Source: Edaphobacter flagellatus (GTDB taxonomy: Bacteria > Acidobacteriota > Terriglobia > Terriglobales > Acidobacteriaceae). Taken from it: a stretch of 64,000 nucleotides of DNA. The translations under genes and the position numbers were made by a program. Positions 25,392-48,058 of this stretch are shown here, piece after piece; position 1 is the first letter of the stretch; each line of letters begins with the position of its first letter. The stretch is from the NCBI RefSeq assembly GCF_025264665.1, contig NZ_CP073697.1:744001-808000 (forward strand), in the 5' to 3' direction. The notes beneath the pieces are model-generated. The model was not told where the DNA came from. It worked only from the letters and a program-made list of their open reading frames with translations, and searched no databases.

Positions 25392-25487
25392 GACGCAATG
25401 GAAGCGGCCAAAGAAGCATTGAGACCTTGGACTAACCCGTCCAAGGACGTGGGAGAATGACGCATCCGCGTTGTGCTCGGAAAGTCG

Positions 25488-26369
25488 TTACTTTGGCCAA
25501 ACTTCCCAGGTAAGGTCCTGGGTCATGGATGGCTTTGGATGTGCGGACCGCAATTCTGCGAGGGTTGGGAATGCTGAGACATCCTGCGGGTACTCACGCT
25601 TGTATTCCGCCAGTGCCTGCTGAATAACATGGGAAGGTTCCGCCAGGCTGATATTGGTGTTCAGCGTGTAGCTCAAGCTGGCCGATGCGGACTGTGCTGT
25701 CCGCGTCTCAATGACACCGCCGTACATCATGCCCACGACTTCTGCGTTGGAGGTTGAAAGGATTGGCGAGCCGCTGGAGCCGCCCTGCTGCATGATGTCA
25801 ATCGAAAAACCGTGAGGACGACGAGTGGGAAATGGCAGGACACTGCTCACGATGCCGCGCCGAATAAAGGGGCTCACCTGATTGAGCTTTCCGAGTGCGG
25901 TGAGAGGGGCCGTCCCCAGTGGATAGCCAATGGTGGCAATCTCCATGCCTACCTCCAGATAAGAATCCGCGCTGGCCAAGGGAAGAAAAGGGGTTCCTTT
26001 CACCTTGAGTTGCACAAATCCGATGTCCGGCACCGTCTGACCATACCAGTCGCCCTCTGTACTGAAGCTTCCCAGAGCACATGAACCTTTCGGCTCGATC
26101 GCGGCCATCTGACAGGCCAACCGGTCTTCGCTGAAGAAAAAGATAACGGCCGCAACCGGCGACTCCTTTCTCTCCGGATGCTGCGGGATCTGGTCAAACA
26201 CGTCCACCACATGACGGTTGGTGACCACGGTTCCGCAGTCATCAACAAGAAAGCCGGTGCCCAAGATGTCTGGAAAAAGCGGTGGCGAATTCGCCGGCAA
26301 GACTTTGAAGCGCGCGATAAAACCCACGACACAAGGAGTTGCCTGATAGTAGAGATCGGTCAATGTCAT
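25488..26369 (-). CDS. Cytosolic trypsin-like serine protease
   Basis: 293 aa Trypsin_2-type protease. The triad is readable: His53 in TNRHVV, Asp115 in VPDIGFVQL and Ser199 in GGSSGSPIL. No signal peptide precedes LYYQATPCVVGF, so it should act inside the cell. Its ATG overlaps the stop of the HEPN-domain gene (ATGA), so the two are translationally coupled. Proteases coupled to toxins or sensors are common effectors in anti-phage systems; here cleavage of its HEPN partner or of a host protein is inference. Confidence 0.88.
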   Translation of the reverse strand: MTLTDLYYQATPCVVGFIARFKVLPANSPPLFPDILGTGFLVDDCGTVVTNRHVVDVFDQIPQHPERKESPVAAVIFFFSEDRLACQMAAIEPKGSCALGSFSTEGDWYGQTVPDIGFVQLKVKGTPFLPLASADSYLEVGMEIATIGYPLGTAPLTALGKLNQVSPFIRRGIVSSVLPFPTRRPHGFSIDIMQQGGSSGSPILSTSNAEVVGMMYGGVIETRTAQSASASLSYTLNTNISLAEPSHVIQQALAEYKREYPQDVSAFPTLAELRSAHPKPSMTQDLTWEVWPK

Positions 26370-27658
26370 CGGTTTCTCCGGCGCATAGCGCGAACCAGCC
26401 GCTTTTGCTCGACTGCCAAGAAGAGTTCATCATCCTGGGTAATTAAGCGAGAGTGCATGGTATCGATGCGAATGGGATAGAGCCGTTGCAGGGACTCTCG
26501 TGCACTTTCCACGCGGTCGAAGTACCTCTCGAACAGCTTCCAATTGTCGCGTTTACAAATCACGCGCTCGTAGTCCGTGAAATCAGCATAGGCGATGAGT
26601 GGAAGATCGGCATCGGTGTGTCGCTGGGCTGATTGTTTTCGCTCGCGCCAAGCCGTTACGGTATCCGCAGGCACACGATGTTTCGGCCACTCCGGACCGA
26701 AGGCCTCCGTCATAACTTCATCGATGAATCCTCGTAGCTCCGTCTCCAACCGCTGCAGTCGGTCGTGCGCGGCGTTGGTCCTCCGGAAGCCCGATTCCTC
26801 GTCATCTGCGACCTGTTCGGGCTCTTCGGCTTCTACCTTTTCAATAGGTGGAGGCAAAGTGTCGATCAAGCCAGCCATCGTGAGACTCTCGCGAAAGGCA
26901 GGTGCTGGCATGACGGTCAGAGCGGAATTGACGCCAAGGCTAGCGTAGAAATCCGAGCGGGCTTGGAGGTCGGTATAGATAGAGTTGGGAAACTCTATGT
27001 GCTCGCGCCAGTCCCCGAGTTCGAGACGCAACGCAGCGGAGAGTTCGTGGTCAAAGGGCGGAATGATGCTGATCCCCCTACCCATCTCCTGAATTGCGGA
27101 AAACGCAGATGACGAGAGAAGCGGATTGGCAACGTCCAGCCAAGGGGAGCGCATGTTTTCCATGGCACGTTGAATGTCTGCAGAGCCGCTGAGAGATGCG
27201 AAGGCCTTGCCTGCGGCAGAGCTGTGGAAGTCTGCTGCTAGTCTCGCCGCTTCCTCGGCCCCCGGCAAGCGAAACCCCGCCTCGAAGTTCTGCAGAATAT
27301 TTCGGTTGATGCCGATACTTTCAAGCACAGCCTCCTGCGCGCGAAATAGGCCCCTCTCCTTGAGATCAGCGAGTGGCCCAATAGCCAATCGAGGAATGAT
27401 TTCGTGGGCGCGCAAGGTTTCGAACAGAGAAGAGACTGATGCGGAAGCCGACGTGGCAAAGCCCAACTGTTTGAAATACTTTTCATGTTCAGCAATCGCT
27501 GAGAAAAGCGACCGATGCTGCTCCATGTCCCTGAACACACGGGAATGCTCGGCCATCGCAGAGGTTATGGCATTATGCAAGCGCAAGTCCTCAGTTAGAC
27601 CGAGTTTGTCTTTCCAAGTGAGACTTCGATTTCGAAAAAAATCATCTGCACCGCTCAT
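26366..27658 (-). CDS. Swt1-like HEPN-domain protein
   Basis: 430 aa. The N-terminal 270 residues are helical and unrecognised. The C-terminal 130 residues match the Swt1-like HEPN domain: LRGFIDEVMTEAFGPEWPKHRVP, PLIAYADFTDYERVI, NWKLFERYF, then RxxxxH as RIDTMH at about residues 395-400, the motif used by HEPN RNases. Start at 27658 is chosen because AGG lies 9 bp upstream; the frame to 27883 has an implausible basic extension. It overlaps the protease gene by 4 bp. An abortive-infection-type RNase gated by the protease is a reasonable hypothesis. Confidence 0.8.
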   Translation of the reverse strand: MSGADDFFRNRSLTWKDKLGLTEDLRLHNAITSAMAEHSRVFRDMEQHRSLFSAIAEHEKYFKQLGFATSASASVSSLFETLRAHEIIPRLAIGPLADLKERGLFRAQEAVLESIGINRNILQNFEAGFRLPGAEEAARLAADFHSSAAGKAFASLSGSADIQRAMENMRSPWLDVANPLLSSSAFSAIQEMGRGISIIPPFDHELSAALRLELGDWREHIEFPNSIYTDLQARSDFYASLGVNSALTVMPAPAFRESLTMAGLIDTLPPPIEKVEAEEPEQVADDEESGFRRTNAAHDRLQRLETELRGFIDEVMTEAFGPEWPKHRVPADTVTAWRERKQSAQRHTDADLPLIAYADFTDYERVICKRDNWKLFERYFDRVESARESLQRLYPIRIDTMHSRLITQDDELFLAVEQKRLVRAMRRRNR

Positions 27659-27943
27659 GACCATTACCTGCCTTCTCAATTGTCCCAAAGCCCGGTACCC
27701 ACGTACATAGCCCCGCGAAATGATGCTGGCGAGCCAACAAGAAGAGCATGCAAACAGAATGCGAAGGGGGTGCCTCCTTGCGGCCCGATTTTGGCGCAAA
27801 GAGAGATGCGAGAACGACCGGCAGGGGTGGAAAGCGTAGAACGGAAAATGGCCGACACGGGGAGGAAGTGTCCTGCCGCTCAATCAAAAGACTGTCATTG
27901 GTAAAGTTATTGGGAAGAATTCACATCGATTGGAGTAGCTCGC

Positions 27944-29005
27944 ATGAAGAAAGGGCTTATCTGTCTGAGTTCCGGAACAACTCCTCAATACCGCCTCGAC
28001 ATTCTGCGTGTAATGGCCTTACCCGAGGGAGCGGAGATCCAGTTTCGCTATGACGGCGATCTGATCGATGCGGCCAGTCGACTACATTTTGGCCGCGACC
28101 AGAAGCACGATACTCCAGCGCTCCTGGCCCATCTCGATCTGACGGTACCGGTCACCACCGCAGGGCCACGCCCGATTCATCCCTGTCGACATGCAAAGCT
28201 GATTGCATCCGAAGAACTTGGCCAGTTTTATATTTTGAGGTTCCGGTTGGGAGCCTTTTGCCAGTGTTCTGACCTCGACGGATTTCGAAAGCACCTGGCC
28301 ACGAAAGGTCCTCAGGCAAAGGACGGGAAGCTCGAAGGACACTGGGTCTTCGAAGATGAGTTCACGAAGGCCTGTACGACTTCGAACGAGATGGGTGTCT
28401 GGCAGGCCTCGATGAAGGATCTGGGGAAGACAGCGGACTATGACAAGGAAAGCTTTTTCTTCAGGGTGATAGGACTCTACCGGCGCGGCAGCGATCATGC
28501 GGTCAAGCCTGCGGATGGTGAATATAAGCTGAAGTCCAACACCGAGTACGAGTGGCGCGTCTTTCATTTCCATCCGGAGTCGGACGCCCACCAGACCAGC
28601 AGTGTCTCGACGCTGATCCAGGTCAACTCCATGTCGGACGACATCGTCCCTGTGACCTCCCCTGAACTCGCAATCGATTCTTCCTACGATCTGAAGTCCT
28701 TCCACTTTCGAACGAAGGCAGTGACCGCCACAGACTATACGTCCTTCACGATCAAGTTTCAGGATGTTGTGCCAACAGGCAGTGTAGGGGCCGTCCATCC
28801 CGAGCTCTTCCTTCCGCTCAAGGTGGTTCCTTCATGGTGGCGAGCAATTCTGTCCGTGCTCGGGCTGACGGTACTGCTGTTTCTTCAGCAATATATCTCC
28901 GCGACCGCGAAGGGAGGCATCCCGCACCACACGAGCTACGCGTTGCTGGGATTGGCGTTCTTGACGGCCCTGGTCGCGGTGTACGCCCTCAAGAAGCCGC
29001 TTTAG
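27944..29005 (+). CDS. Hypothetical protein with two C-terminal transmembrane segments
   Basis: 353 aa, no family recognised. The first 295 residues look soluble and beta-rich. The last 60 contain two hydrophobic segments (WRAILSVLGLTVLLFLQQYI and YALLGLAFLTALVAVYAL), so it is a tail-anchored hairpin membrane protein with a cytosolic N-domain. It is divergent from the HEPN-protease operon across a 285-bp gap, and its stop overlaps the convergent YunG-like gene. A membrane effector tied to the neighbouring HEPN-protease unit is possible but unproven. Confidence 0.6.
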   Translation: MKKGLICLSSGTTPQYRLDILRVMALPEGAEIQFRYDGDLIDAASRLHFGRDQKHDTPALLAHLDLTVPVTTAGPRPIHPCRHAKLIASEELGQFYILRFRLGAFCQCSDLDGFRKHLATKGPQAKDGKLEGHWVFEDEFTKACTTSNEMGVWQASMKDLGKTADYDKESFFFRVIGLYRRGSDHAVKPADGEYKLKSNTEYEWRVFHFHPESDAHQTSSVSTLIQVNSMSDDIVPVTSPELAIDSSYDLKSFHFRTKAVTATDYTSFTIKFQDVVPTGSVGAVHPELFLPLKVVPSWWRAILSVLGLTVLLFLQQYISATAKGGIPHHTSYALLGLAFLTALVAVYALKKPL

Positions 29006-29431
29006 TGCTGCGGGTGCGGGGCGAGGTGGGAACTGACGCGCTGCTGCAACTCGTGATAACGCCGCATGGTGTCGGGAAAGGACAGGATGAAGTCACGACC
29101 GCAGGGTTTCGCCTTGGAGTGGTGCGCCGATTTTCCGAACTGCGTTAAGGTCAGGTCCCATTCGACACTGGAAGACAAGCGATTCCAGTAGTGCGGAATC
29201 CCATTTACTTCTCCGGATACGATGGCGCCGCCGCAATAATCCTGGATGACCAATGCGGTCACGGCACACTGTCCCCATGCAGGATTCTTCGCGGACCACT
29301 GGGCTGGATCGTAGGAGGTATCGCGTCCCCAAGCATGCCGAAGGGCGGCTGCCAAAAGTCTGGGTCGAGATGCACTGCGTGGTGCCGACTTTAGCTTTGG
29401 ATCTGCCATATCTCTGCCAAACTTAAGCATA
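29002..29431 (-). CDS. YunG-like protein
   Basis: About 142 aa. The pattern LLAAALRHAWGRDTSYDPAQW, NPAWGQCAVTALVIQDYCGGAI, GIPHYWNRL and EWDLTLTQFG fits the YunG-like family, small proteins with conserved Cys and His that resemble a papain-like arrangement. Start at 29431 has GAGGAG 7 bp upstream; the frame extends to 29766 but would run into the sigma-factor gene on the other strand. It converges with the two-TM gene with overlapping stops. Biochemical role unknown. Confidence 0.65.
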
Positions 29432-29677
29432 CGCCCACTCCTCGGCCCTATCACATTTTTTTCGCATTTTATTCGCCTCGCCCCAAGCTGGTTACCCGAC
29501 ACGGGCCATAGGAGCGCAGAAATCCTGGGGTCAGGACTTAATTCTGGGGGGATGGCGGCGTATATAGTTGTAGATGGATTGACGGGGGTTTGCACCCAAG
29601 TGGCTCCAATAGCGGGCCCGAGAAGCGTGTAGACCGGATGCGTAGCCTCCGTGATTTTGTACGACACGAGGTTAAGC

Positions 29678-30292
29678 ATGCGCGGTTCTACCGACGCCGT
29701 TTCAGACGGTGCGTCCTTTTCGCTATCCACCTGTGGTCCGCTTCTTTCGGAGACCTCCGTTCTCACGATTGATCGCCACCTGAAGTATCTCGCCTATCAC
29801 CTTGCCCCCACCGCTGACCGTCAGGACGACCTGATCCAGGTGGCGTTGCGTGCGATCCACTACGCGCACGTCATCTACGAGCCGGGGCGCGGTGCCTCTC
29901 TGGAGACGTATCTAGTAAAGTGCGGCCAGAACGCCATGCTGGACTTCCTGCGTGCGGAACGGCGTCAGACCGGTCGTTGGGATTCTGGCGATGCTCCACT
30001 CAGCGCCGACACCGACGAGACGTTGTTCGACACGTTCCCTGCTAAGGACGCCGAGTCCGACCCGGAGCGCATGTTCCTGCTGCAGCAGGTGAAGTACGCC
30101 GTTGAAGATCTGCCCGAGCGCCAGCGCGAGTGTATCCAGCAGCACTTTTACGAGGGCCGCGAGAACGCCGAGATCGCGGACAAGCTCGGGATCTCACGCC
30201 CGCGCGTAACGCAGCTGATCCAAGCGGGCCTCAACCAACTGCGCGCCCGCCTCACCTACCGCACCTTAACGCCGGCGACAGCCATTCACTAA
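29678..30292 (+). CDS. Sigma-70 family RNA polymerase sigma factor
   Basis: 204 aa. Region 2: LKYLAYHLAPTADRQDDLIQVALRAIHYAHVIYEPGRGASLETYLVKCGQNAMLDFLRAERR. Region 4: DLPERQRECIQQHFYEGRENAEIADKLGISRPRVTQLIQAGLNQLRARL. There is no region 1.1 or full region 3, so it is of the small alternative type. Start at 29678 follows GAGG. It ends 10 bp before the first GHKL ATPase gene, so it is the first gene of that operon and may direct its own transcription. A dedicated sigma factor heading a defence-like operon is unusual. Confidence 0.88.
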   Translation: MRGSTDAVSDGASFSLSTCGPLLSETSVLTIDRHLKYLAYHLAPTADRQDDLIQVALRAIHYAHVIYEPGRGASLETYLVKCGQNAMLDFLRAERRQTGRWDSGDAPLSADTDETLFDTFPAKDAESDPERMFLLQQVKYAVEDLPERQRECIQQHFYEGRENAEIADKLGISRPRVTQLIQAGLNQLRARLTYRTLTPATAIH

Positions 30293-30302
30293 GGAGACCG
30301 CG

Positions 30303-32144
30303 ATGGCAAAAGGACCAAAGAAGATGAAGGGGCAAGCGGCGGAAGCCGCTGCACCGGTTCCCGAGCAGATGCTGCTCACCGATTTGGAAACACAGCATGT
30401 CTACGTTGAAAACCTCAAAGCTCAGGGAGACCGTGGCTTTGCACTCATCGCTGCCGCTGCCTTCGTCAAGGGAATGCGAGACAGCGGCTATCGTTCCACC
30501 GCGACTGCGATTGACGAACTTGTCGATAACTCTTACCAGAGCCAGGCCGACCGGGTGGATCTGCTGTGTGGCAACGACGGCGGCAAGGGAGTGGGAGACG
30601 TCTTCGTCATTGACAATGGCCACGGAATGGAACCGGAGATGATTCGCGCCGCTGTTCTATGGGGGGGAACGCACCGCTTCAATGACCGTTCGGGCCTCGG
30701 GCGATACGGCTTCGGATTGCCGAGCGCTGCGGTGAGCATGACCGAAAAGTATGCCGTCTATTCCAAGATTGCGGGCGGCGATTGGTATAAGGTCGAGATC
30801 GACCTAATGGATGTTGCCACGGGTAAGCTGACGAACGACGTTGGTTTGATCGTTGCACCCAATCCTCAGCGCGCCGAACTTCCTGCCTACGTGACGACCT
30901 ATCTCGGCGATCGCGTGTTGAATTCAGGTACGGTCGTGCATCTCATCAAACCGGATCGCCTTACGAGCGGTTTTAGGTTCATACAGAGCTTCGAGCAGAA
31001 GATGATGGAGCATCTGGGCGTTATCTATCGCGGCCTGCTTCGCACCTGCAGCATCTTCGTCAATAATCGAGCCGTGGAGGCAGTTGACCCGCTCTTCATC
31101 GATCCCAACGCGCGCTACTACGACATCGGCACAGGTGTTCGCGCTCAAGCATTGCCTGCAACGGAGATCACGCTTACTACGCAAAAGGGCGTAGAGGGTG
31201 TCATGCGCCTGCGTTTTTCATATATGCACCCCAACTTCCAGCGAGATGCCGAAGGCAGGATGCACAAGGGGCGATTTGGGGTCATAAAAGAAAACAACGG
31301 TTATCTCATCGTGACACGTGCAGGACGGCAGATTGATCTTGTTTCCCGACCGCAATACACCAAAGACGCGGACAACATCACAATTATCAACTTTGATCGC
31401 AACTGGGCCATCGAACTAGATTTCGACCCGGTGCTGGATGAAGAGTTCGGGATTACGGTCAATAAACAACAGGTGGCCCTCTCAGAATTGATTTGGCAGA
31501 AGCTTTCGGAGTACAAGGTCCCGAATGTCGTTGCGGAGATGAGAAAGAGGTTTAAGGACGACAAGCTTGCGATCAAGAACCCTAGTGGTGCTAGCACATC
31601 CCAAAAGCGAATTTCCGAACAGGTCATGCAAGAGGCAGGCAAATTTACCTCTAGATCGCAGCGGCCTGGCTCCGAAGAGCAGCAGCAGGAAGCTCGAGAA
31701 AAGGTACAAAAAGAGGCGGAAGAACGAGCACAGAAGTTCGATACCACTCCCGAAGAGGAGTTCACGAAGATTATCGCCGAGCAACGTGAGCACCCCTTCA
31801 TCGTTTGCTTTGAAGCGATGGAAGGGGCACCTTTCTACCGCACCGATCAGAACGGAGTTCAGGTGCGGATTTGGATCAATCGATCACATCGCTTTTATCA
31901 GGACTTCTACGCACAGCTCGGATCTGATCCTCGTAGCCAAGCCATTCTAGAGATTCTCTTGTTCGTTCTCGGTGATTGTGAGTTGGAGGCGCGTGGCGAC
32001 CGCAGCCTGTTCTATCGCGCGGAACGAGCAGAGTGGTCGAAGCGGCTGGATATCGCTCTGGCCTTGCTCGATCGAAATGACTCAGTGGAGGACATGGAAT
32101 CGGCATTGGCTGAAGAATCGGAGTCTGCCCATGAAGATGAATGA
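30303..32144 (+). CDS. MORC-like GHKL ATPase 1
   Basis: 613 aa. The Bergerat ATP site is complete: N box in IDELVDNSYQSQAD (about 62-75), G1 in VIDNGHGM, G2 in GLGRYGFGLPSA. An S5-like domain follows (to about residue 400), then a charged coiled-coil (EEQQQEAREKVQKEAEERAQKF) and a C-terminal block ending in an acidic tail. GGAG precedes the start. It is a full-length paralogue of the next gene, sharing the C-terminal N-x-HxFY...E-LL pattern. GHKL proteins of this kind occur in predicted R-M and defence loci (MORC-like) and work as ATP-gated dimer clamps on DNA. Confidence 0.85.
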   Translation: MAKGPKKMKGQAAEAAAPVPEQMLLTDLETQHVYVENLKAQGDRGFALIAAAAFVKGMRDSGYRSTATAIDELVDNSYQSQADRVDLLCGNDGGKGVGDVFVIDNGHGMEPEMIRAAVLWGGTHRFNDRSGLGRYGFGLPSAAVSMTEKYAVYSKIAGGDWYKVEIDLMDVATGKLTNDVGLIVAPNPQRAELPAYVTTYLGDRVLNSGTVVHLIKPDRLTSGFRFIQSFEQKMMEHLGVIYRGLLRTCSIFVNNRAVEAVDPLFIDPNARYYDIGTGVRAQALPATEITLTTQKGVEGVMRLRFSYMHPNFQRDAEGRMHKGRFGVIKENNGYLIVTRAGRQIDLVSRPQYTKDADNITIINFDRNWAIELDFDPVLDEEFGITVNKQQVALSELIWQKLSEYKVPNVVAEMRKRFKDDKLAIKNPSGASTSQKRISEQVMQEAGKFTSRSQRPGSEEQQQEAREKVQKEAEERAQKFDTTPEEEFTKIIAEQREHPFIVCFEAMEGAPFYRTDQNGVQVRIWINRSHRFYQDFYAQLGSDPRSQAILEILLFVLGDCELEARGDRSLFYRAERAEWSKRLDIALALLDRNDSVEDMESALAEESESAHEDE

Positions 32145-33702
32145 GACTTCGATGCCGATAGTAAACCAAGCCTCCATAGAGGCTACATCTCCAGGATTAC
32201 CCATCGTTTCAGTACGGGCTTTTATCGAAGCGACACGCGACTCTGGGTACAAGAGCACGTCGGCGGCCATCGCAGAGCTCGTAGATAATGCCATCGAAGC
32301 GAATGCAGAGCAAATCACAATCAGCATTGTCGAAACATTTATAGCGGGCAGCCGGACGATCTCCATTAGTGTGCTCGACAACGGCTCGGGTATGCCGAGG
32401 CAGGTCTTGGAATTGGCGCTTCAGTTTGGAGGGAGCACTCGGTTCGGATCACGAAAGGGCCTAGGACGATATGGAATGGGGCTGCCCAACGGTTCTCTAA
32501 GCCAGGCGCGCAGAGTGGAAGTCATCTCGTGGGAGAGACCGGACGAAGTCTGGATGTCTTACCTAGACGTGGATGAGATCGTAATTGGCAAGATTACGAG
32601 CATACCCGCACCGGTTAAGCTATCTCCAGAAGCGCTTGGCGTGGACGAGGCCAGCGGCACGTTGGTCACGCTCAGCCGGTGCGACCGGCTGGACTTCAAA
32701 CGGGCGAACAAGCTGGTGTCCAGGCTAAAGCTCGATCTTGGTCGGCTGTTCCGCTGTTATCTCGTTCAGGGCGGGCGGATTTCCATCAACGGGGAGCGTC
32801 TGGCTCCCGTTGATCCGACCTTTCTGATGCCACGCGGCGCCGAGCCACAGGCGAAGCCCTATGGTCCGCCCTCCGTGTATGGGGTCCGAGTTGTTGATCC
32901 AGTCACGGGCGAGGAGCGCACCGCAACAGTAAAGGTTATTTTTGCGGAGCTGCCGCTCGAAGCCTGGCATGGCCTATCCAACGAAGAAAAGAACCGACGT
33001 GGGATCGCTAAGGGCGCTGGAGTCGCAATATTGCGTGCTGGACGTGAGATCGATTACGGCTGGTACTTTATGGGCAGTAAGCGCCGTGAGAATTATGACG
33101 ATTGGTGGCGCTGCGAGATCAGCTTCCCTCCGGAATTGGACGAGCTGTTCGGCGTAACACACACCAAACAACGAATCCGTCCTGATGAACGCATCGTTGC
33201 ACTCTTATCCCCTGATATTGAGCGCACTGCGAGAGAACTAAGCAATCGGGTACGTAGGCTGTATGCCGCCATACGAGCTCAAGAGCCACGTGACCGGATG
33301 TTGGAAGGTTTCTCGCGGAAAGACTTCCTCTTAGAACCTCCCCCGGCGCGTTCGATGCGTCGAGCAAATGCAGCAGACGGTTCGCCTCATATGCCGAGGA
33401 CTATGCCGCCAGGAATGTCCTACAGGATCGAGGAAATTCCGATGGAAAGCCGCATGTTTTATGAGCCGATTCAGAAAGGGACAGGACTCACCCTCGCATT
33501 GAACGAGAACCATACGTTCTACAAAAAAATCATCAGCAGACTTGAACAGGAGCTACCAAACCATGATCTTCGACGCTGTATCGAGATGCTTCTTGTAGCA
33601 GCCGCACGGTCGGAGGTGATCCTCGGAGGGCAGCGGGAACGTGAGACAATGAAGAGATTCCGCCAGTCCTGGAGCGATTCACTTGTGGCCTTCTTGACTT
33701 GA
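32131..33702 (+). CDS. MORC-like GHKL ATPase 2
   Basis: 523 aa, starting 14 bp inside the previous gene, so translation is coupled; GGAG lies 7 bp before ATG 32131. N box IAELVDNAIEANAE, G1 VLDNGSGM, G2 GLGRYGMGLPNG are intact. The C-terminal part aligns with that of GHKL ATPase 1 (FYEPIQKGTGLTLALNENHTFYKK), but the coiled-coil is missing. The pair could form a heterodimeric clamp. It is followed after 7 bp by the DruA homologue. Confidence 0.85.
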   Translation: MKMNETSMPIVNQASIEATSPGLPIVSVRAFIEATRDSGYKSTSAAIAELVDNAIEANAEQITISIVETFIAGSRTISISVLDNGSGMPRQVLELALQFGGSTRFGSRKGLGRYGMGLPNGSLSQARRVEVISWERPDEVWMSYLDVDEIVIGKITSIPAPVKLSPEALGVDEASGTLVTLSRCDRLDFKRANKLVSRLKLDLGRLFRCYLVQGGRISINGERLAPVDPTFLMPRGAEPQAKPYGPPSVYGVRVVDPVTGEERTATVKVIFAELPLEAWHGLSNEEKNRRGIAKGAGVAILRAGREIDYGWYFMGSKRRENYDDWWRCEISFPPELDELFGVTHTKQRIRPDERIVALLSPDIERTARELSNRVRRLYAAIRAQEPRDRMLEGFSRKDFLLEPPPARSMRRANAADGSPHMPRTMPPGMSYRIEEIPMESRMFYEPIQKGTGLTLALNENHTFYKKIISRLEQELPNHDLRRCIEMLLVAAARSEVILGGQRERETMKRFRQSWSDSLVAFLT

Positions 33703-33709
33703 AGGACAA

Positions 33710-35746
33710 ATGACTTTGCTTGCAGTTAAATCAGACGTTTTGGAGTTTGATCGCGAATCCCTTCCCGCCGAGATTGACGAGTTCTTCGTACAGACGGCGG
33801 CTGCCCTGCGGCGTGCCGAAGACCCGGCGTCGCGCGCAGCGTCCATTTTCCGTCTCCGTACATCCATAAATGGGCATCATAAGCCTGCCTCCGTCAAGGC
33901 TCTTCGTTCGATCCTCTTTCGCCACGTTCTGCTGGATCTTCTGAACCAGGGTTGGTCGGTCGCGCTTTCCCGGAAACGGGTCTGCCTGAAACCGGGTGAC
34001 ACCTCGAATGAAGACCCTAAACAGGCCAAGGAGAGAATCCGCCAACAACATCTGCAGGAGCGGGATGCTCAGCTTCGGGAGCCGTCTGTCCGAGATTTTA
34101 TTAAGCAGATGGAACGGCGGAGGCTTACCTCCCAAGGCTGGCATTCGATCTTTTCGGTCATGCGAGATGGCGAAGAGCTTGCGCAAAAGCTGCAGGCGGC
34201 AACGAGCAAGACTGATCCAGCAGAACGCGAAGAAGCTTTAGCGAGTTGTGTCGATCCGTATCTGCAATATGTAGAACCAAAGGAAATCTGCACCGAAACC
34301 GGCCTTAGGCTTGGTGACATCTGGCGGTATTTCCGTCATACATGGACGAACTCGTACAGGAGTGTTCCTGGTCGAAGCATGGCGCTGCTGATTCGAGACC
34401 GGGCTGCCGCAAACCATCCAGTCATTGGCATTGCGGCCTTAGGAAGCTCAGTGGTACAGCAGTCTGTCCGCGATGCTTGGATCGGTTGGGACGCGGCTGG
34501 AATCGTCGAAACCTTTTGCTCTGCGCCAACCAAGGCTACGGTGCGATGGTTTTGCGAACGGGTAGATACACAGATTCAGGCTCTCTATAAGAAAGACCTG
34601 CTCCGTGACAAACTCATCACCAGCGCACAAGTTCGCAAGCCAACTGAGATCGATATAGAGCGGCTACTGCATGAATCAGATGCAGCAATCAAGCGGCATC
34701 GGCTTTATCCAGATAAGGAAACGCTCAAGCTGAGTGCAGAGAACGCTCCATGGAAGAAGGTCACAGCGACAGATTTGTATCGCAGCAAGCGCTGTAAGCA
34801 ATTGGCGATTCTGTTGTCGATCCGGAAGACAATTCTTGATGTCGGCTTAGAAGCGCTTCCGTTGAGAGAGCTGCGTTCTGTGATGCAGACAGCGAAGATG
34901 CGACGCGCTGTGACGCAGTTGTTCCGCCAGATCAAGGCAGAGCGGGTGGGCATCTGCATGATGGACATCACCGTCTGCGGAGCGATTGCGCCGTATAACG
35001 CAATCTTAGGTGGGAAACTGGTGTGCCTGATGCTATGCAGCCCAGAACTGGTGAGCATCTATCAAAAGCGTTATTCCAAACAGGTGAGCGTGATTGCGTC
35101 GGCCATGGCAGGCGCAAAAGTAGTGCGAAGCCCAAAGCTATCTTTGCTCTGCACCACGAGCTTGTATGGCGGAGGATCAAGCCAGTACAACCGCCTCAAG
35201 GTACCCGCCGGATCATTTGGCAATCTTCCGGCGCAGGACATTTCCTACATTGAACTTGGTATGAGCGAAGGATTCGGTTCCTACCACTTCAGCAAGGAGA
35301 CGATCCGTTCAGCAGACGCACTTCTCGGACGGCTCGAACATGGTAGGAAGGTGAATAGCATCTTTGGCGAGGGGGTCAATCCTCTGATGCGAAAGATGCG
35401 GGAGGCTCTAACGGAAGTCGGCCTTCCCAGTGAGATGTTATTGAAGCATGGGAATCGGCGCATTGTTTATGGCGTGCCCCTTGCCTCGAACTTCAGTGAC
35501 GTTCTCATGGGTCTATCAGATCGTCCCAAATATACTCTTCCGTTGAAAAACGCGACGCAGGAAACCGCGAACCTAGGTCAGTTCTGGCGGACTCGATGGC
35601 TATCAAATCGAATTATGCGTGAAGGTATCCTTGAAGAAGTTGCCCAGCATAAGCTTTCCTTCCCGGTGCACCATGGGGCGATGGTCCAGATACCGGATGA
35701 AGAGAGCCCAGAAGAGGGAGACTTTTCGCTTCGCCTCAATTCATAG
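33710..35746 (+). CDS. DruA (DUF4338) homologue
   Basis: 678 aa. The DUF4338 core is clear: NHPVIGIAALGSSVVQQSVRDAWIGWD at about 234-260, GGKLVCLMLCSPELVSIYQKRY at about 443-465, SLYGGGSSQYNRLKVP and GSYHFSKETI. This is the family of Druantia DruA. The N-terminal 230 residues are less typical, with a Ser/Arg-rich helical segment. Start ATG 33710 has AAGGA upstream and lies 7 bp after the GHKL ATPase 2 stop. No DruE-type helicase is nearby, so this is not canonical Druantia; the GHKL pair replaces it. DUF4338 biochemistry is unknown to me. Confidence 0.8.
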   Translation: MTLLAVKSDVLEFDRESLPAEIDEFFVQTAAALRRAEDPASRAASIFRLRTSINGHHKPASVKALRSILFRHVLLDLLNQGWSVALSRKRVCLKPGDTSNEDPKQAKERIRQQHLQERDAQLREPSVRDFIKQMERRRLTSQGWHSIFSVMRDGEELAQKLQAATSKTDPAEREEALASCVDPYLQYVEPKEICTETGLRLGDIWRYFRHTWTNSYRSVPGRSMALLIRDRAAANHPVIGIAALGSSVVQQSVRDAWIGWDAAGIVETFCSAPTKATVRWFCERVDTQIQALYKKDLLRDKLITSAQVRKPTEIDIERLLHESDAAIKRHRLYPDKETLKLSAENAPWKKVTATDLYRSKRCKQLAILLSIRKTILDVGLEALPLRELRSVMQTAKMRRAVTQLFRQIKAERVGICMMDITVCGAIAPYNAILGGKLVCLMLCSPELVSIYQKRYSKQVSVIASAMAGAKVVRSPKLSLLCTTSLYGGGSSQYNRLKVPAGSFGNLPAQDISYIELGMSEGFGSYHFSKETIRSADALLGRLEHGRKVNSIFGEGVNPLMRKMREALTEVGLPSEMLLKHGNRRIVYGVPLASNFSDVLMGLSDRPKYTLPLKNATQETANLGQFWRTRWLSNRIMREGILEEVAQHKLSFPVHHGAMVQIPDEESPEEGDFSLRLNS

Positions 35747-35766
35747 TTGCTTTTGAAAGGAGAGCG

Positions 35767-35781
35767 ATGTTTCGCTTATGA
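35767..35781 (+). promoter_or_regulatory. Mini-leader start site (MFRL stop) before the ATL gene
   Basis: AAGGAG is correctly spaced from ATG 35767, which opens a 4-codon frame MFRL ending in TGA. That TGA overlaps the ATG at 35778 (ATGA) of the next gene. Ribosomes would start on the mini-frame and re-initiate on the alkyltransferase-like gene. Confidence 0.4.
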
Positions 35782-36158
35782 GCCGTCGGCTAGCTCCGGA
35801 GGGAGTCAAGAGAAATATCACCAAGCGAGGCTACGCCCGCGATGAGGAGAGAGACGATGCGTTTCGCCAAATAATTCGTTCCATTCCGCGAGGGCGAGTA
35901 TCAACCTATGCGCGGGTTGCCGAAGCTGCTGGCTATCCGTTATTCCATCGGGCGGTAGCTAGGCTTCTCCGGAAGGACACGCTTACCTCTCTCCCTTGGC
36001 AGAGAATCGTGGGTTCTGGAGGAGAGATTCGGTTGAAGGGTGAGTTTGCGGAGGAACAGCGACTGCGTTTGAGAATGGAAGGTGTTCAATTTCATGGTGA
36101 GCGCGTAAACATGGGCATCTATCAACACGAGCTACGCAGATGGGAGGTTTTGGATTGA
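35778..36158 (+). CDS. Alkyltransferase-like (MGMT-fold) protein without active Cys
   Basis: 126 aa. The MGMT DNA-binding fold is clear: FRQIIRSIPRGRVSTYARVAEAAGYP, RAVARLLRK and GGEIRLKG, with PWQR at about residue 73 in place of the methyltransferase PCHR. Loss of the Cys marks an ATL-type protein that binds O6-alkylguanine or other lesions and recruits repair, without transfer. It closes the sigma-GHKL-GHKL-DruA operon, overlapped by a 4-codon leader frame. Sensing of modified bases in phage DNA is an attractive inference. Confidence 0.8.
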   Translation: MSRRLAPEGVKRNITKRGYARDEERDDAFRQIIRSIPRGRVSTYARVAEAAGYPLFHRAVARLLRKDTLTSLPWQRIVGSGGEIRLKGEFAEEQRLRLRMEGVQFHGERVNMGIYQHELRRWEVLD

Positions 36159-36181
36159 TCGATAGGGCCAATCTTGCGTTT

Positions 36182-36502
36182 TCATTCGCTCGCCGGATAG
36201 CCATAGTCCCGCAGCCGCTTGCGACATAAGTCCAGTTCGTCACTGGTAAAGAGAGGATGCCATCGTGCATTGTTGAGAATGACAGCCTCGACAGTGAGAT
36301 CAAGCCGTTGTCGCTGCCAAAGAGCTGTATATCCTTCCGATACCTGCGGTGCATGGAGGAGATACTTGGCCGTCGCGAGTCCGCCCTCATCGTGAATCAT
36401 CGTTAAGAATCGACTGGCTTTGTACTTAACTTCGGAAAGCGCTCGCCGGTAGACCTCTACCATCGCCTCTTCGAACTCCATCACAAGTCTTGCTTTGTCC
36501 AT
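36182..36502 (-). CDS. Hypothetical mobile-element protein
   Basis: 106 aa, mostly helical. The pattern FLTMIHDEGGLATAKYLLHAPQVSEGYTALWQRQRLDLTVEAVIL and LFTSDELDLCRKRL is of a type commonly seen in accessory regions, but no function is known to me. It converges with the ATL gene and lies upstream of the relaxase gene on the same strand. Confidence 0.6.
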   Translation of the reverse strand: MDKARLVMEFEEAMVEVYRRALSEVKYKASRFLTMIHDEGGLATAKYLLHAPQVSEGYTALWQRQRLDLTVEAVILNNARWHPLFTSDELDLCRKRLRDYGYPASE

Positions 36503-36589
36503 AGGAAACCATTCTATGTGCCCGGTTCTTGCCTGAACCGTTTCTTCGTTGCCCCAGCGATGCTCCGGGCATTCTCGTTCGTTTCTAAT

Positions 36590-39500
36590 CTACCGGCCAA
36601 TCCCGAATCCTTCTATCTCAATGCTCGGCATCTTTTGCTCCGTAGGGGTAACTCCGGCCCCGAGAGATGATGGGTCGAGGTCTTTGCCTAATGCGTTCCT
36701 ATCCAGCGAAATCTCTCTGCCTCGCGAGATGAAGATAGCGAGATCATTTGTTTGGAGGGTGAGGAGCGCGAACTGACGTTGATGTTGAGAAAGTACATTG
36801 CTGTCTCCGGTGACGAGAACACGGTGCATTGAGCGCGGTAGGTCTTCTGTCGCGTATCCGTACTCGATGTGCCGGGTCTGCGCTTGGGAGAGAGCAGCAG
36901 ACTTACCCTGATCGCTACGCACCATCAGCGAACGGTCCTCTCCTATTCGTTCGATCGTGGCAAAGTCACCCTTGCGAATACCAATTTCCTGCGCCGTCGC
37001 GGTAAAACGGATGCGCTCACCTTCGGAGACATCGCGCATCTCTTCCCGGAAGACATGCGCCTGGCTGGTCAAGCCCCTTACCAACGCAGGGTTATAGCTG
37101 ACTTCACTTCCATCGAGTGAGGCAACGGTGAGCCGGTTGGTTTTCGCATCGACGGTTAGTACGGTTACGGTACTGTTGTCGGCGATGCCGAGTTCGGCAC
37201 TACCTACTTTGTAATGAATCTGGTCACCAGCGGCGTAGTTCGCCGCGAGACGAGGATTGCCAAAGCGCTGTTCGACCCACACAGGAAGCTGATGGCTTTC
37301 CGCGGAGAGCCGTCCCTGCTGGCGGAGTTCATCACGGATAAGCTGCGTCAGTTCTTTACGTTCACCTGCATCCGGCGCGACGACTAAGGCGCGGTCCTGC
37401 TGCGAAGCATAAGCCAGAGCGACTGCGGCTAAGCGGTGTTCTGCGCTAGCGTATTCATGGACACGACCATCCTGCTGGAGGATGGTCGTAGCGGTGGCGG
37501 GATCATTCTCACGGAAAGCGGAGACGGCACGCTCTACCTCGCTCTTCTTCGGAGGTTGCGCGAGGTCGACGGCTGCTGTCTTCGAGATATCGGTGGCGAG
37601 ACGATTGCCTAGACGCGCGGCGTCGTTGGTATAGATGTGGGCGTCGTGCGACGCACGCGAGATGGCAACGTATGCCAGCCGTGTGTTCACCAACCCGCGC
37701 GGGCCCCCGGTATCGAAATGAGCCAGCACACGCTCTGAAGTGAGGCCCTGCGAGCTATGCGAGGTCACGGCATACCCATGATCGTACTGCCGGACCGTTT
37801 CGGTATCGAAAGTGAGCGTCCGCTTGTCTTTACCGTCGATACGCACTGTCATGCGTCTGTCTTCGATACGTTCGATGGTGGCAAGGTCGCGGTTGGCAAC
37901 GCTCAACTCTTTCAGCGGCGCGGTGAACTGGATACGGTCTCCAGTGGCAAACGCGCGCTCCTGCTCGCGGAAGACATTTACCCCTCGTAGGCGCCGCGGA
38001 TCGTAGGCCACAACCTCTCCATCGGCGCGCTTAACCGTCAATAGGTTTGCCTTGGCATCGACAGCCTTGACTGTAGTAAAGCTGCCGCGCTCGATGCCCA
38101 GTTCCTTGCTTCCGGTGTTGTACTGAACCACGTCGCCGATGCTGTACCGAGCCGCCCAGGTACGGTCGGCTCCAGTCATGTCAGAACGATGGGAGAGGGT
38201 ACGAAACATCCTGCCATCGTCTTTCAACTTGCCCGTCTGCAACAACTCGGCGCGGATGGCCTCGTTGATCTCCTGACGGCTCTTGTTATCAGGAGAGACG
38301 ACGAGTGTGTTCTCCGGACTGGCCGCATAATCCTTGGCGATGGCGGCGATGCGGTCACTCCGAGCCAGCAACTCGGTGATGCGGCCCTGCTCTTGCAGCA
38401 ACGCGATGCCTTGCTGCGTTTCGGCCTTCGCAAGGTGCTCCACAGCTTTTAGGAGTGAAGGATCTTTCTGTCTCATGATGCGGTCAAGCTGGGCGGTGCG
38501 CATCCCGGCCTCCTGCATCTGTTGGAACGGACGACCGGCGTCTACGCCCTGATGCTGAGCGGTGTCACCGATGACCAGCACCCGGTCCTGCGGTTGCAAT
38601 TTTTGCAGAAAGTCGCGCATCTGTTTGGTACTGGCAAGGCTCGATTCATCGAGCATGTAGAGGTGACCCGATTGCTGCTCACGGGATAAGTCCATCTTCC
38701 GTGCAAGGAAGCTCTGCAACGTAGAGGCGTCGATGCCAGCCTCACGGAGTTGGGCTGCTGCGCGGGACGTGGGTGCAAATCCCTCGACAATGAACCCACT
38801 CTTTTCTGCACCCTCGCGAATGGAAAAAAGCACTGAGGTCTTGCCCGATCCTGCCCGCCCCTGCAAACCGTGGATACGGTCGGGCGAGTTCAACACCTCT
38901 TCGATGACGCGCTTCTGGGAGTCATTCAGGAAGGTGTGCGACTGTGCCTGACGCTGTGCGTCTTCGGCACTCATGATCGGCTGAACGGTGTTCTTGGCGC
39001 CGCGAACGTATTCGATGTTGGCGCGTTCGGCGGCGATGGTTTCCGACGTGGTGAAGCGCGGGCTGGAGGCATGTTTGTGGGATTCCACCGAGAGGAAATC
39101 TCCCCGTTGCCGCCGCGCCTCGAATTCGGCGCGGACCTGGGGATAGGTGGTATTTCCCATACCGCGCCGTAAGGCATCACGGAGCAAAAGGCGCTCGTCC
39201 AGCACAGCCTCGCGCTCATACAGGCTGCTGCGAGCATAGGTTACAGCCTCCCGCGCATGAGCGGTGCGGTCAGGTGTATGGCTCTGCACCTGTGCCCGTT
39301 CACGGGCTTCGGCCACGATGCGCTGTGGTTGGTTGCCGTACTCGGCAGCGATCTCCCGATGCGCCGCCAGGACCTCGGCAGGCGACATCGCCTGCTTCTT
39401 CTCGCGGGTGGACCGCGCCGCGATCTCAGCCGCCTCTGGTCCAGAGACGCCGCGCTTTTCCATCTCTTCCTTGATCTTCTCGCGACGCAGGCTGGAGGCT

Positions 39501-40240
39501 TTCAAATAGTCCGCTGAATAGGACTTGATTTCAGGTGCTCCACTTTCGCCCGGTTCGATCTCATATCCGAGGCCACGTAGGCGGTACATCAATTCCGACT
39601 GATACACCGCCGTCACGAAGTTCTGGCTCTCAAAGAACGGTTGTTCTTGTAAGGCCCGCGTCGTGCCACCGGTGCGTTGGGTCACATTGAAGATGACGGC
39701 ATGAGTGTGGAGTTGCGGAGCGGCGTAGCCATCAACCGGACGTGCGGTGTCGTGCTCGAACTTCGCTGCCAGGAACCTGCCCGTTTGTTCCGCTGGTTTA
39801 TTTCCGCCCAGACGGGCGTGCGTGTACTTCTCCAACTCATCCAAAGCCGCCGTCACGGCTGCACGATGGGCTTCGCGGATACGATCGTCGCCTCCCACGA
39901 GGGCGGTCAACGAAACAGACTTCGTGGGTGCAAACATCGCATCCCATCCGGCACGGTGAGCCACGGCCTTCGTCGTAGAGCCATCGGGATTCTTGTATTC
40001 GGTAGCGATACGATGGCGCACCATCTGTTCGCCTGTCACCGGATGCTTGCCTTCGGTGAGGCGGGAGAACTCCAGGGCGGAGACCTCGCCGGAGACACCC
40101 ATGGATTCGGCGAGCTTACCTTGCCATTCGCCTATCACCTGATCGCCCTGGGCGTAGTAGCTCTGCGTGGGCGAGGTGTAATCGAGCTTGTGATAGGTCT
40201 GCGCCTGGGTCGCGTTCAGAGGTTTGGAGATGTCGAGCAT
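36590..40240 (-). CDS. MobF-family conjugative relaxase (TrwC/TraI type) with duplicated C-terminal module
   Basis: 1216 aa. The N-terminal relaxase has candidate catalytic tyrosines (Tyr16, 21, 28, 29) and the metal His triad (His163, His178, His180 in LHTHAVIF). A SF1 helicase follows, with GRAGSGKTS at about residue 463 and the RecD-like SHSSQG motif near 800-830. Residues about 620-880 are followed by a second, degenerate copy of the same helicase half (about 925-1190) in which SHSSQG is replaced by TEDLPRS. It nicks oriT and unwinds the strand for transfer. It lies directly downstream of the coupling-protein gene (4-bp gap). Confidence 0.93.
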   Translation of the reverse strand: MLDISKPLNATQAQTYHKLDYTSPTQSYYAQGDQVIGEWQGKLAESMGVSGEVSALEFSRLTEGKHPVTGEQMVRHRIATEYKNPDGSTTKAVAHRAGWDAMFAPTKSVSLTALVGGDDRIREAHRAAVTAALDELEKYTHARLGGNKPAEQTGRFLAAKFEHDTARPVDGYAAPQLHTHAVIFNVTQRTGGTTRALQEQPFFESQNFVTAVYQSELMYRLRGLGYEIEPGESGAPEIKSYSADYLKASSLRREKIKEEMEKRGVSGPEAAEIAARSTREKKQAMSPAEVLAAHREIAAEYGNQPQRIVAEARERAQVQSHTPDRTAHAREAVTYARSSLYEREAVLDERLLLRDALRRGMGNTTYPQVRAEFEARRQRGDFLSVESHKHASSPRFTTSETIAAERANIEYVRGAKNTVQPIMSAEDAQRQAQSHTFLNDSQKRVIEEVLNSPDRIHGLQGRAGSGKTSVLFSIREGAEKSGFIVEGFAPTSRAAAQLREAGIDASTLQSFLARKMDLSREQQSGHLYMLDESSLASTKQMRDFLQKLQPQDRVLVIGDTAQHQGVDAGRPFQQMQEAGMRTAQLDRIMRQKDPSLLKAVEHLAKAETQQGIALLQEQGRITELLARSDRIAAIAKDYAASPENTLVVSPDNKSRQEINEAIRAELLQTGKLKDDGRMFRTLSHRSDMTGADRTWAARYSIGDVVQYNTGSKELGIERGSFTTVKAVDAKANLLTVKRADGEVVAYDPRRLRGVNVFREQERAFATGDRIQFTAPLKELSVANRDLATIERIEDRRMTVRIDGKDKRTLTFDTETVRQYDHGYAVTSHSSQGLTSERVLAHFDTGGPRGLVNTRLAYVAISRASHDAHIYTNDAARLGNRLATDISKTAAVDLAQPPKKSEVERAVSAFRENDPATATTILQQDGRVHEYASAEHRLAAVALAYASQQDRALVVAPDAGERKELTQLIRDELRQQGRLSAESHQLPVWVEQRFGNPRLAANYAAGDQIHYKVGSAELGIADNSTVTVLTVDAKTNRLTVASLDGSEVSYNPALVRGLTSQAHVFREEMRDVSEGERIRFTATAQEIGIRKGDFATIERIGEDRSLMVRSDQGKSAALSQAQTRHIEYGYATEDLPRSMHRVLVTGDSNVLSQHQRQFALLTLQTNDLAIFISRGREISLDRNALGKDLDPSSLGAGVTPTEQKMPSIEIEGFGIGR

Positions 40241-40243
40241 AGC

Positions 40244-42301
40244 CTATGTCTCCCGGATCAAAGCAGGACCTACCGCCTGTTCTTCTTCAAGTTCTTCATC
40301 CTCTGAAGGGCTAGGTGTTAGCTCTTCTGCCTGCTGCACGGCAGCGGGTGTAGGCCATGCAATCGGAGCACGTTCTTTATCGTGTGGACCGTCACTTTCG
40401 GTCGCCGGAGGGGTGTCTTCCTTCTCCTGGGATTCTTGCTCTGGCGTGGGTGCTGGCACATTCTGCTCCAACGTGTCCGGGTTAAAGCGCAGTCCGCCTG
40501 CGGTCTTCCGTGGCAGGAAACCGGGCGTGGGCGTCGGCAGGTCCATGTAGTCAAAAGCGAACCGCGCCACGCTGTTACCCAGTTTGAGATAGGCGTGTCT
40601 GTCGTCGAGACCGGATATCTCGGAACCCATGACCAGAGGTTCGATCTGACGTTCCACGGTGAAGTTGTGCCCGGAGCGCGTACCGTCGAATTTCGTTTCC
40701 TTCAGCCGCTCGATCTCCACCTTACCGATCGCCTCGGATATCCACTCGGCGGCCTTTGGTTCGGCGGTCTTCATGAAGATTTTGGTGGCAGGCTGGGACA
40801 GCATCACTTCGGCAAGATGACCATAGATGACCTCAAGCTGGGCCTTGCCCTGAAAGCCGAGGATGAGCGGGTTCTTGGACTTCCTGTTCTCCGTAATGGC
40901 GGTATGAAGCTGCGGCAACCGCTGCAAGCTGGCCAACTCATCGATGACAAACCATACCGGCTTTTGGCCGGGCTGTGGGGTAGTCAGCAGCCGCATCACC
41001 AGCAGATCAATCCAAAGCGAATGTAGCGGTCGTAGCGTGTCTCGTTCAGGCGGTCGAGAGGTAATGAAGATCCACCCTCGACGCGTCTTCGACCAAGTGC
41101 GCGCGTTCCAAACGGCACGCTTTTCGTCACGCTCCGGAAGCATGCGAAATGACTTTGCGACCAATCCAAGCGAAGAAAGAACACCCGCCCGCTGAGGGCC
41201 GGCCTTCCTATCGATATAGAAGGCCATCTCCGTCCCCTCTACCATCTTCATCAACTCTGTATCGCTCGACATCCACGCGGCAAGCTGGTGCGGTGTCGGG
41301 CCGCGCTTCAACAGATGGGCGAAGATTTGGGCGGGCGTTTCGTGGAAAAACTCATCGATCTTGTCCGTCTTCGGTGCATACAGAGACGTGGCAATGGCAT
41401 AGGCTTCATCCTCCGATTCCAACTCTTGTGCCGGTCCCCAATAAGGGCATCGGGCATCGAGCGGATTGAGCACGATGTCTCCACGTTGGGCGTCATAGAA
41501 TCGCTGAATGTATTCACACGCCGGGTCATAGACGATGGCGGAATCACCCCGACCTCTGATCTGGCGAAGGCACTGCATGATGAGCTGCGTCTTGCCAACA
41601 CCCGTATCGCCCATGAGTTGGAGATGCTGTGCTTCCTTATGCAGTGGAATCCGCATCATCCGACCGGATTCCGTGGTCTTAAAACCCAGACCATCGCCCT
41701 TCTGAGCCTTGTTGAACTCGGTTGGATCGAGCATCCGAGGACCGCGAAGGACGCGGCCGTACTTCATCTCTTTGAAGCGCCGAATGTCCTTCGGAACAGC
41801 CAAAGCAAGCAAGACTGCAAGGCATAATCCGCCCTCGATCATGCTGACAGAGAATATTCGCCAGGGGCTTGCGCCACCGTAAACGACATCATGCTGCCAC
41901 CGGTACATCGAGGCGTCGGCCAGCCTCTCTGCGGGGCCGCGAAACGGAAAACGATACCCCTGAGCATAAGCAAGTTCGGACAGGGCGAACGGCATCCTTT
42001 TGCCCTTCGGCAGCGTCATCTCACCCTCAGCGAAGTCGATGGGCATTGCGAGACGCGGCTTCGCTTTTGAGCCTCCGAGATACAGTAGCCGGTAGCTCTG
42101 GTGGGCATGGAAGGCGCTACCGACACCAGCCCGCGCATAGTCTGTCATGTACGCCTTCTGGAGCGGCGGGAGTTGGAAAGCATATCGCTCCCAGGCAAAG
42201 AACAGCGTCAGCAAGAACGCTCCCGCAACGGCGCAATAGCTCATCAGCGGAACGTGCGGCGGCCAAATGATCGTCTCTTTTCTACCCCATTGTGTTGCCA
42301 T
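40244..42301 (-). CDS. Type IV coupling protein (VirD4/TraD/TrwB type)
   Basis: 685 aa. N-terminal TM segments (SYCAVAGAFLLTLFFAW and IEGGLCLAVLLALAVP), Walker A LMGDTGVGKTQL at about residue 230, Walker B WFVIDELASLQRLP at about 450, then LILGFQGKAQLE. The C-terminal tail is Pro/Glu-rich, probably a specificity tail. It links the relaxosome to the VirB channel and pumps DNA. GGAG precedes the start, which overlaps the RHH accessory gene by 20 bp; this is a relaxosome operon. Confidence 0.93.
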   Translation of the reverse strand: MATQWGRKETIIWPPHVPLMSYCAVAGAFLLTLFFAWERYAFQLPPLQKAYMTDYARAGVGSAFHAHQSYRLLYLGGSKAKPRLAMPIDFAEGEMTLPKGKRMPFALSELAYAQGYRFPFRGPAERLADASMYRWQHDVVYGGASPWRIFSVSMIEGGLCLAVLLALAVPKDIRRFKEMKYGRVLRGPRMLDPTEFNKAQKGDGLGFKTTESGRMMRIPLHKEAQHLQLMGDTGVGKTQLIMQCLRQIRGRGDSAIVYDPACEYIQRFYDAQRGDIVLNPLDARCPYWGPAQELESEDEAYAIATSLYAPKTDKIDEFFHETPAQIFAHLLKRGPTPHQLAAWMSSDTELMKMVEGTEMAFYIDRKAGPQRAGVLSSLGLVAKSFRMLPERDEKRAVWNARTWSKTRRGWIFITSRPPERDTLRPLHSLWIDLLVMRLLTTPQPGQKPVWFVIDELASLQRLPQLHTAITENRKSKNPLILGFQGKAQLEVIYGHLAEVMLSQPATKIFMKTAEPKAAEWISEAIGKVEIERLKETKFDGTRSGHNFTVERQIEPLVMGSEISGLDDRHAYLKLGNSVARFAFDYMDLPTPTPGFLPRKTAGGLRFNPDTLEQNVPAPTPEQESQEKEDTPPATESDGPHDKERAPIAWPTPAAVQQAEELTPSPSEDEELEEEQAVGPALIRET

Positions 42302-48046: not shown

Positions 48047-48058
48047 ACGGTCACCCCT

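Follow-up and report, generated by a model that had tools for sequence, protein, structure and literature searches.

What does an operon do that joins a sigma factor to two GHKL ATPases, a DruA homologue and an alkyltransferase-like (ATL) protein? This question is raised by positions 29678-36158 of the window, the whole stretch of 64,000 nucleotides of Edaphobacter flagellatus DNA analyzed here (contig NZ_CP073697.1, positions 744,001 to 808,000). The five genes are all intact and codirectional, and their tight spacing, described in a first-pass annotation of the sequence, was confirmed (10 bp between the sigma factor and the first ATPase, a 14-bp overlap of the two ATPase genes, 7 bp between the second ATPase and DruA, and 31 bp between DruA and ATL). 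The first gene (29678..30292, on the plus strand like the other four) encodes a sigma-70 family factor of 204 amino acids with regions 2 and 4 (Pfam Sigma70_r2 2e-10, r4 2e-13). It starts at ATG 29678, with a longer alternative at GTG 29651. The next two genes encode GHKL-1 (30303..32144, 613 amino acids, HATPase_c_3 7e-16) and GHKL-2 (32131..33702, 523 amino acids, HATPase_c_3 2e-20), the latter starting at ATG 32131 and not at 31972. The N-box Glu/Asn, DxGxG, G-box and transducer (S5) Lys are intact in both proteins, which share 26% identity over a 544-position alignment (E=1e-36), in agreement with their earlier description as full-length paralogues with two intact sites. A GHKL-1 family profile matched MORC2 chains best in the PDB (E 1e-9), followed by MutL, over ~95-110 positions. 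The fourth gene (33710..35746) encodes a long DruA of 678 amino acids (DUF4338, PF14236 1.6e-31). The PADLOC DruA1 model scores 600 bits on its residues 61-664, which bears out the link of DUF4338 to Druantia. The ATL protein of 126 amino acids (35778..36158, PF01035 (DNA_binding_1) 1.6e-15) completes the operon.

Conservation of the gene set

Neighborhood comparisons showed that the sigma factor, two GHKLs and the long DruA form a widespread conserved four-gene module. The least biased sample consists of 54 genome loci chosen by the GHKL profile alone. A codirectional DruA gene lies within 360 bp of the GHKL gene in 45 of these 54 loci; thus, the DruA-GHKL linkage exceeds chance. In one further locus (L009), DruA adjoins the GHKL gene in convergent orientation. 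A sigma factor gene is located within 402 bp of the GHKL gene in half of the sample (27/54; the match in L054 is weak), and in two loci (L004 and L005) it adjoins DruA. The sigma factor, earlier regarded as an unusual addition, is therefore a regular member of the family, and the MZA system has one too. Comparison of the distance matrices of adjacent GHKLs and DruAs from 50 loci gave r=0.95, a value inflated by shared ancestry and reached in none of 2000 permutations. Six Pelagibacteraceae loci (L043, L048, L049, L051, L053 and L062) carry a sigma-like gene directly upstream, as judged by profile comparison (93.8% probability, E 1.7e-7), where Pfam is silent.

An extended set of 65 loci adds to the genome loci five plasmid regions (of 39 records), two viral-contig loci and four relatives, the last chosen after their short loci had already shown DruA. 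In this set a codirectional DruA is found in 54 loci and a sigma factor gene in 29. Seven further matching relatives stand outside the count, with lower scores and no DruA in flanks of at most ~1.4 kb, and near-identical loci were kept in the counts (L018/L019, L004/L005, L006/L044, L060/L061, L043/L053 and L051/L062). Viral contigs gave no match to a single-sequence query and four loci with an alignment query, where two matches cover most of the protein; the two viral loci left out of the set of 65 showed no GHKL, DruA or sigma factor by profiles. Phage records gave no DruA match. The distribution of the module is patchy and crosses phyla, with locations on plasmids and an integrative and conjugative element (ICE). 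Among 396 genomes of the phylum, the long DruA occurs only in the window's own genome and a short DruA in three others.

The expectation that all five genes travel together held for the sigma factor, the GHKLs and DruA and failed for ATL. The ATL protein has PWQRIVG in place of the methyltransferase motif PCHRV, with Trp for the catalytic Cys, as seen in the PF01035 match and the translation. Its profile matched nothing in 83 loci, many of them short, where a motif scan returned spurious open reading frames only. A second ATL, 65% identical, is encoded in an ordinary part of the chromosome of the same genome. Because none of the 83 loci matched and this chromosomal copy exists, the ATL gene was probably recruited by the operon, and a core role for it was rejected.

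Sigma-GHKL pairs without DruA were also observed. In L012 (9230-14201) the pair is followed by a 769-amino-acid protein lacking a Pfam match, and in L013 (9309-16368) by a PLD/ResIII helicase and an AAA_23 protein. The sigma-GHKL module may serve with other effectors in these two loci.

GHKL pairs, promoters and leader RNAs

A tree of 84 GHKLs, built by a quick method that left 19 forks open, resolved three supported groups: S, which contains GHKL-2 (16 rows), X (14 rows) and Y, which contains GHKL-1 (51 rows). The GHKLs of L007, L008 and L054 fall outside all three. Loci with two GHKLs and DruA, 20 in addition to the window, comprise twelve X+Y, two X+S and seven Y+S pairs, the clade of the second GHKL of L064, too short for the tree, being assigned by profile score only. 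None of the 21 pairs is of the same clade. Under random pairing, such avoidance arose in 7 of 200,000 trials, and in 2,946 of 200,000 after the loci had been collapsed by hand to 11 lineages. The ATP-site residues are kept almost throughout (N-box Glu in 84, Asn in 85 and Lys in 85 of 86 proteins). Since all 21 loci pair different clades, we infer that the two GHKLs form a heterodimer, which strengthens the earlier suggestion of a heterodimeric clamp.

For nine alphaproteobacterial X+Y loci, the sequences preceding the GHKL-X operon and the sigma-GHKL-DruA operon were aligned. All nine have a motif, CGCAC-N14-YTGGCC followed by TAGTA, on the X side; all except L022 have it on the sigma side too, where the site of L027 is weak (12.3). 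The sites were first picked by pattern near gene starts. In eight of the nine loci they are the two best-scoring positions of the locus, the next best scoring at most 15.5. A matrix trained on sigma-side sites, leaving out the locus under test, ranked the X-side site 1-3 among ~43,000 positions in eight of nine loci and 100 in L030. The reverse test, with an X-side matrix on the sigma sites, gave ranks of 1-3 in four of eight loci and 5-31 in the rest. Both operons thus appear to share a private-looking promoter in all but one of the nine alphaproteobacterial loci. In the window, no sigma-70 consensus promoter was found in 29300-29720.

Each of the 14 X-type loci has a leader of ~100 nucleotides before its sigma factor gene. 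When a covariance model made from these same loci was run on 64 sources (1.3 Mb), no further copy came up, and the next best hit (E 0.026) was the same position read on the other strand. With the best 150 candidates scored per genome, each of 12 X-type genomes yielded exactly one copy, and 10 further genomes yielded none. Two weak hits of the model within the genus, in G029 (30.5 bits) and G053 (26.2 bits), lie inside gyrB-like and unrelated coding sequence, respectively, and were taken as chance. The base pairs of the leader are kept in 99.3% of cells, a value that none of 500 shuffles reached, and three double changes occur in two pairs. Each of the 14 minimum-energy folds has the CUGC strand paired with downstream sequence (in L004 and L005, CUGU with ACAG) and the ribosome-binding site partly paired, at a mean unpaired probability of 0.14-0.57. 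In folding stability, the five X-type leaders tested exceed their shuffles (z -2.7 to -4.2). An Rfam search with one of them (L024) gave nothing at the gathering score. A leader peptide was considered for the alphaproteobacterial leader and rejected, as length changes in several sequences shift the frame (by eye).

The sigma factor gene of the window may be preceded by a hairpin of another type (29587..29635, plus strand), with the core GGCUCCAAUAGCGGGCC at 29602-29618. The core pattern GGCUCCNAUAGYGGGYC lies upstream of the sigma factor gene in the window and in L021, L037 and, with several base differences, L011; these are the three further Y+S loci that include the region before the sigma factor gene. 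The core scores 44, compared with a maximum of 41 in 60 shuffles. The folds of the four leaders gave z scores of -1.1, -2.9, -1.5 and +2.1, and a longer stretch of the window gave -0.6. In ten genomes the pattern has four hits at sigma leaders and one elsewhere, and a reversed control pattern has eight. Because the folds are unconvincing and the pattern alone is not specific, a hairpin shared by the Y+S loci is suggestive only. Inspection by eye of two Y-type sigma genes (L016 9312-9572 and L052 9402-9612) pointed to what may be a third kind of structured leader, with a GUCCGC/GUUCGC ... GCGGAC closing stem.

Possible functions and known relatives

The kinship of the module to Druantia, MZA and the MORC/paraMORC operons is clear. 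Like Druantia, it has a long DruA, and next to the core many relatives encode DruE, DruD (517 bits) or a nuclease weakly resembling DruK (45 bits). DruE-like helicases that form one protein cluster were found in 26 of 83 loci, and such a helicase occurs further in L086, L087 and L102; the DruE of L004 scores 1528 bits with PADLOC DruE1. The large helicase had been reported missing from the window locus, and this holds for the genome as a whole, where the DruE1 model gives one 27-bit partial hit and nothing at E<=1e-40. At this threshold, DruE is present in 14 and absent from 19 of 33 genomes selected among those available, the window's among the 19, several of which are incomplete assemblies. 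PADLOC Dru models other than DruA matched none of the ten proteins encoded in 25488-36502, the region scanned. The partners in type I Druantia are DruB, DruC and DruD. The window genome lacks DruE, so that by definition the module is not Druantia, and the operon adds two GHKLs and a sigma factor. In type III systems, DruH is the likely sensor and DruE the helicase-nuclease effector, according to part of PMC13192584. The MZA system (mzaABCDE) likewise combines a sigma factor, mzaA in the passage available from PMC9523054, with a GHKL/MutL-like ATPase, and the window has both features; however, its GHKLs reach only 41 and 66 bits against the MzaB equivalog cut-off of 850. The MORC/paraMORC operons (Iyer et al. 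2008, PMC2292703), as far as the available parts of that paper describe them, resemble the module in their GHKL and S5 ATPases, whose motifs and transducer lysine are intact in both window GHKLs, and in their mobile restriction-like neighborhoods, in which MORC and paraMORC1 sometimes occur together. In contrast, the words 'sigma' and 'acetyltransferase' do not occur in the portion of its text at hand, and DruA and a leader RNA are absent from the same parts.

A different arrangement was observed on two haloarchaeal plasmids (L089 and L090), where the long DruA has DruE/DruD-like genes on one side and, as scanned in L089, SspF/G/H-like genes on the other. These loci also place the long DruA beside a defense ATPase set with DruE nearby, but the Ssp-like proteins replace the GHKLs, and neither a GHKL nor a sigma factor was matched. 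In the open-licence literature, the scope of our search as opposed to subscription papers, we found no paper that combines Druantia with GHKL, a sigma factor or MutL, and no description of this gene set, and, among the matches listed, the available text of papers on MORC/GHKL ATPases has no mention of DruA. Overall, the module has the look of an antivirus system related to known ones but not yet described.

The best explanation, which we hold tentatively and at somewhat less than even odds, is that the locus is an ICE-borne immunity module acting against other mobile DNA through a GHKL clamp, DruA and sigma control. MORC and MutL form ATP-gated DNA clamps. GHKL-1 and GHKL-2 could together form an ATP-gated heterodimeric clamp that closes on invading DNA. 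The closed clamp would recruit DruA, a predicted acyltransferase-like (GNAT) protein that might act in acyl transfer or as an adaptor subunit. The trapped DNA would then be silenced or passed to a partner, the DruE helicase in many relatives and perhaps c6, a recurrent neighboring protein, in the window. The sigma factor would turn the operon on from private promoters, its own included, and the leader RNA may pair with the ribosome-binding site and hold sigma translation down until a signal or protein releases it. Both this mechanism and defense as its purpose are inferred. The explanation draws on the DruA-GHKL linkage and the correlated distances of the two proteins, the mixed-clade pairs with their kept ATP-site residues, the MORC2 match of the GHKL-1 family, the DruE, DruD and DruK-like genes of relatives, the promoter motif of the alphaproteobacterial loci, the X-type leader, and the patchy spread across phyla on plasmids and the ICE.

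A number of results weigh against this explanation. A codirectional DruA is wanting in nine of the 54 genome loci, and no sigma factor gene was detected nearby in 27, six of which have a sigma-like neighbor by profile comparison only. The two GHKLs of L012 are both Y-type, but they belong to separate operons of opposite direction that lack DruA. Conversely, of 14 DruA-bearing plasmid records, the three newly examined ones (L088-L090) have no GHKL. The window operon encodes no nuclease, its DruA has no match among PDB sequences at E<=1, and the GNAT assignment of DUF4338 has a sole printed source, one passage of PMC10853773. Neither the alphaproteobacterial promoter motif nor the X-type leader was found in the window, and with the promoter matrix L011, a background locus, reaches 17.4. 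Among 500 shuffles of the leader, 43 matched its number of double-change pairs and 242 its number of pair types. A competing pairing, with a UGCAG-type strand upstream, is conserved but 10.6-16.2 kcal/mol worse; when enforced, it clearly freed the ribosome-binding site in ten of the 14 leaders and hardly did so in two (L022 and L047), and in L025 and L035 the site was not freed. As the alternative fold fails to free the site in some of the leaders, our confidence was lowered both in the explanation above and in a wider, doubtful one: a separate class of DNA defense in which a mix-and-match heterodimeric GHKL clamp and DruA would be turned on by a sigma factor of their own, whose synthesis would be gated by a leader RNA sensing infection or the state of the complex, with DruE, SNF2/NERD and membrane-protein arms as interchangeable effectors.

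The same genes may be read as a control module of the mobile element, in which the sigma factor and the clamp act on the ICE and not on invaders, regulating or silencing its genes, its transfer or its copy number. The sigma factor and the leaders are indeed regulatory, the module lies on an ICE in the window and on plasmids in two Roseobacteraceae, and eukaryotic MORC proteins silence transposons, as described in the parts of that literature at hand. However, the Pelagibacteraceae copies, GHKL-DruA with the sigma-like gene, sit in small genomes between chromosomal genes that look ordinary by eye, the module joins the known defense genes DruE and DruD, and the promoter sites that score best in eight of the nine loci are those of the module itself, although a site at 11741 of L035, by the DruA start, outranks the sigma site of that locus with one matrix. 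We regard control of the element as unlikely. Decay would make the locus a reduced Druantia-type system that lost DruE and now does little, as might be supposed from the absence of DruE genome-wide at the sensitivity used and from relatives of the same genus or class (G049 and G198) that keep DruE beside one GHKL and DruA. Against decay, the window genes are all intact and the ATP-site residues are kept. Moreover, the genomes without DruE (19/33, incomplete assemblies included) comprise those of the window, L011, L021 and L037, which are all the genomes with the clade pairing of the window and a sigma factor gene with its upstream region. Decay thus seems rather improbable. A role in DNA repair or the damage response, with ATL flagging lesions, would fit the position of the ATL gene directly after DruA and the GHKL fold, which is common to MutL, but the lack of ATL matches in the 83 loci and the second copy in the chromosome leave very little room for it.

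Should immunity be the function of the module, inducing an immune operon through its own RNA-gated sigma factor would be out of the ordinary. The shared sigma-GHKL core links Druantia and MZA, and DruA gains a conserved partner and with it a route to its function. For work on MORC-like heterodimers, the locus also provides a prokaryotic system that is genetically tractable, and the model predicts directly which promoter, which hairpin and which ATPase pair.

The mobile element and neighboring genes

The window copy of the module is cargo of an ICE of 48.5 kb (9143..57702) inserted in tRNA-Asp, with ends inferred from a repeat. Repeats of 36 nucleotides at 9143-9178 and 57667-57702 bound the element, the second of them in the 3' half of tRNA-Asp. 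The ICE encodes an integrase, a TrwC relaxase, a TrwB coupling protein and VirB/Trb type IV secretion.

The protein c6 (27944..29005, plus strand, 353 amino acids), a recurrent partner identified by alignment, has two C-terminal hydrophobic segments (by eye) and is probably membrane-anchored. It occurs in 10 of the 54 genomes at hand, in single copy and within 16 kb of the core in each, and in one of the 396 phylum genomes, the window's own. A comparison with PDB sequences matched only Claudin-3 (E 0.25-0.51). Mutual exclusion of c6 and DruE was considered and overturned by L101 and L102, which place both in one island; the two occur together in three genomes (G576, G589 and G598). A YunG-like protein (29002..29410, minus strand, PF24585 3.7e-32, true start approximately near 29410) is encoded beside c6 in the window, L021, L037 and L084. 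A Cys, a His and an Asp are common to these four homologues, and a peptidase-like role is a guess. Both recurrent genes lie outside the first-pass annotation of the operon, as do the relatives with DruE or DruD, the conserved leaders of sigma factor genes and the ICE. A companion block of varying completeness, consisting of an SNF2-type helicase, a NERD-UvrD protein and two unmatched families (c7 and c16), was found near the core in L004 (25035-29670), L006, L025, L026, L028, L033, L035, L047 and L102.

Other genes were observed around the operon in the window. Just inside the ICE end, a reverse transcriptase gene adjoins a PLD-domain gene (9846-12228, minus strand), resembling another defense-type pair. 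Also within the element are a gene for a YhcG-type PDDEXK nuclease (22695-23966, plus strand) and a trypsin-like protease gene overlapping a HEPN_Swt1-domain gene (25488-27883, minus strand), with a weak likeness to the PADLOC candidates PDC-M34/M35. An OLD-like AAA/TOPRIM protein is encoded just past tRNA-Asp (58112-59959, plus strand).

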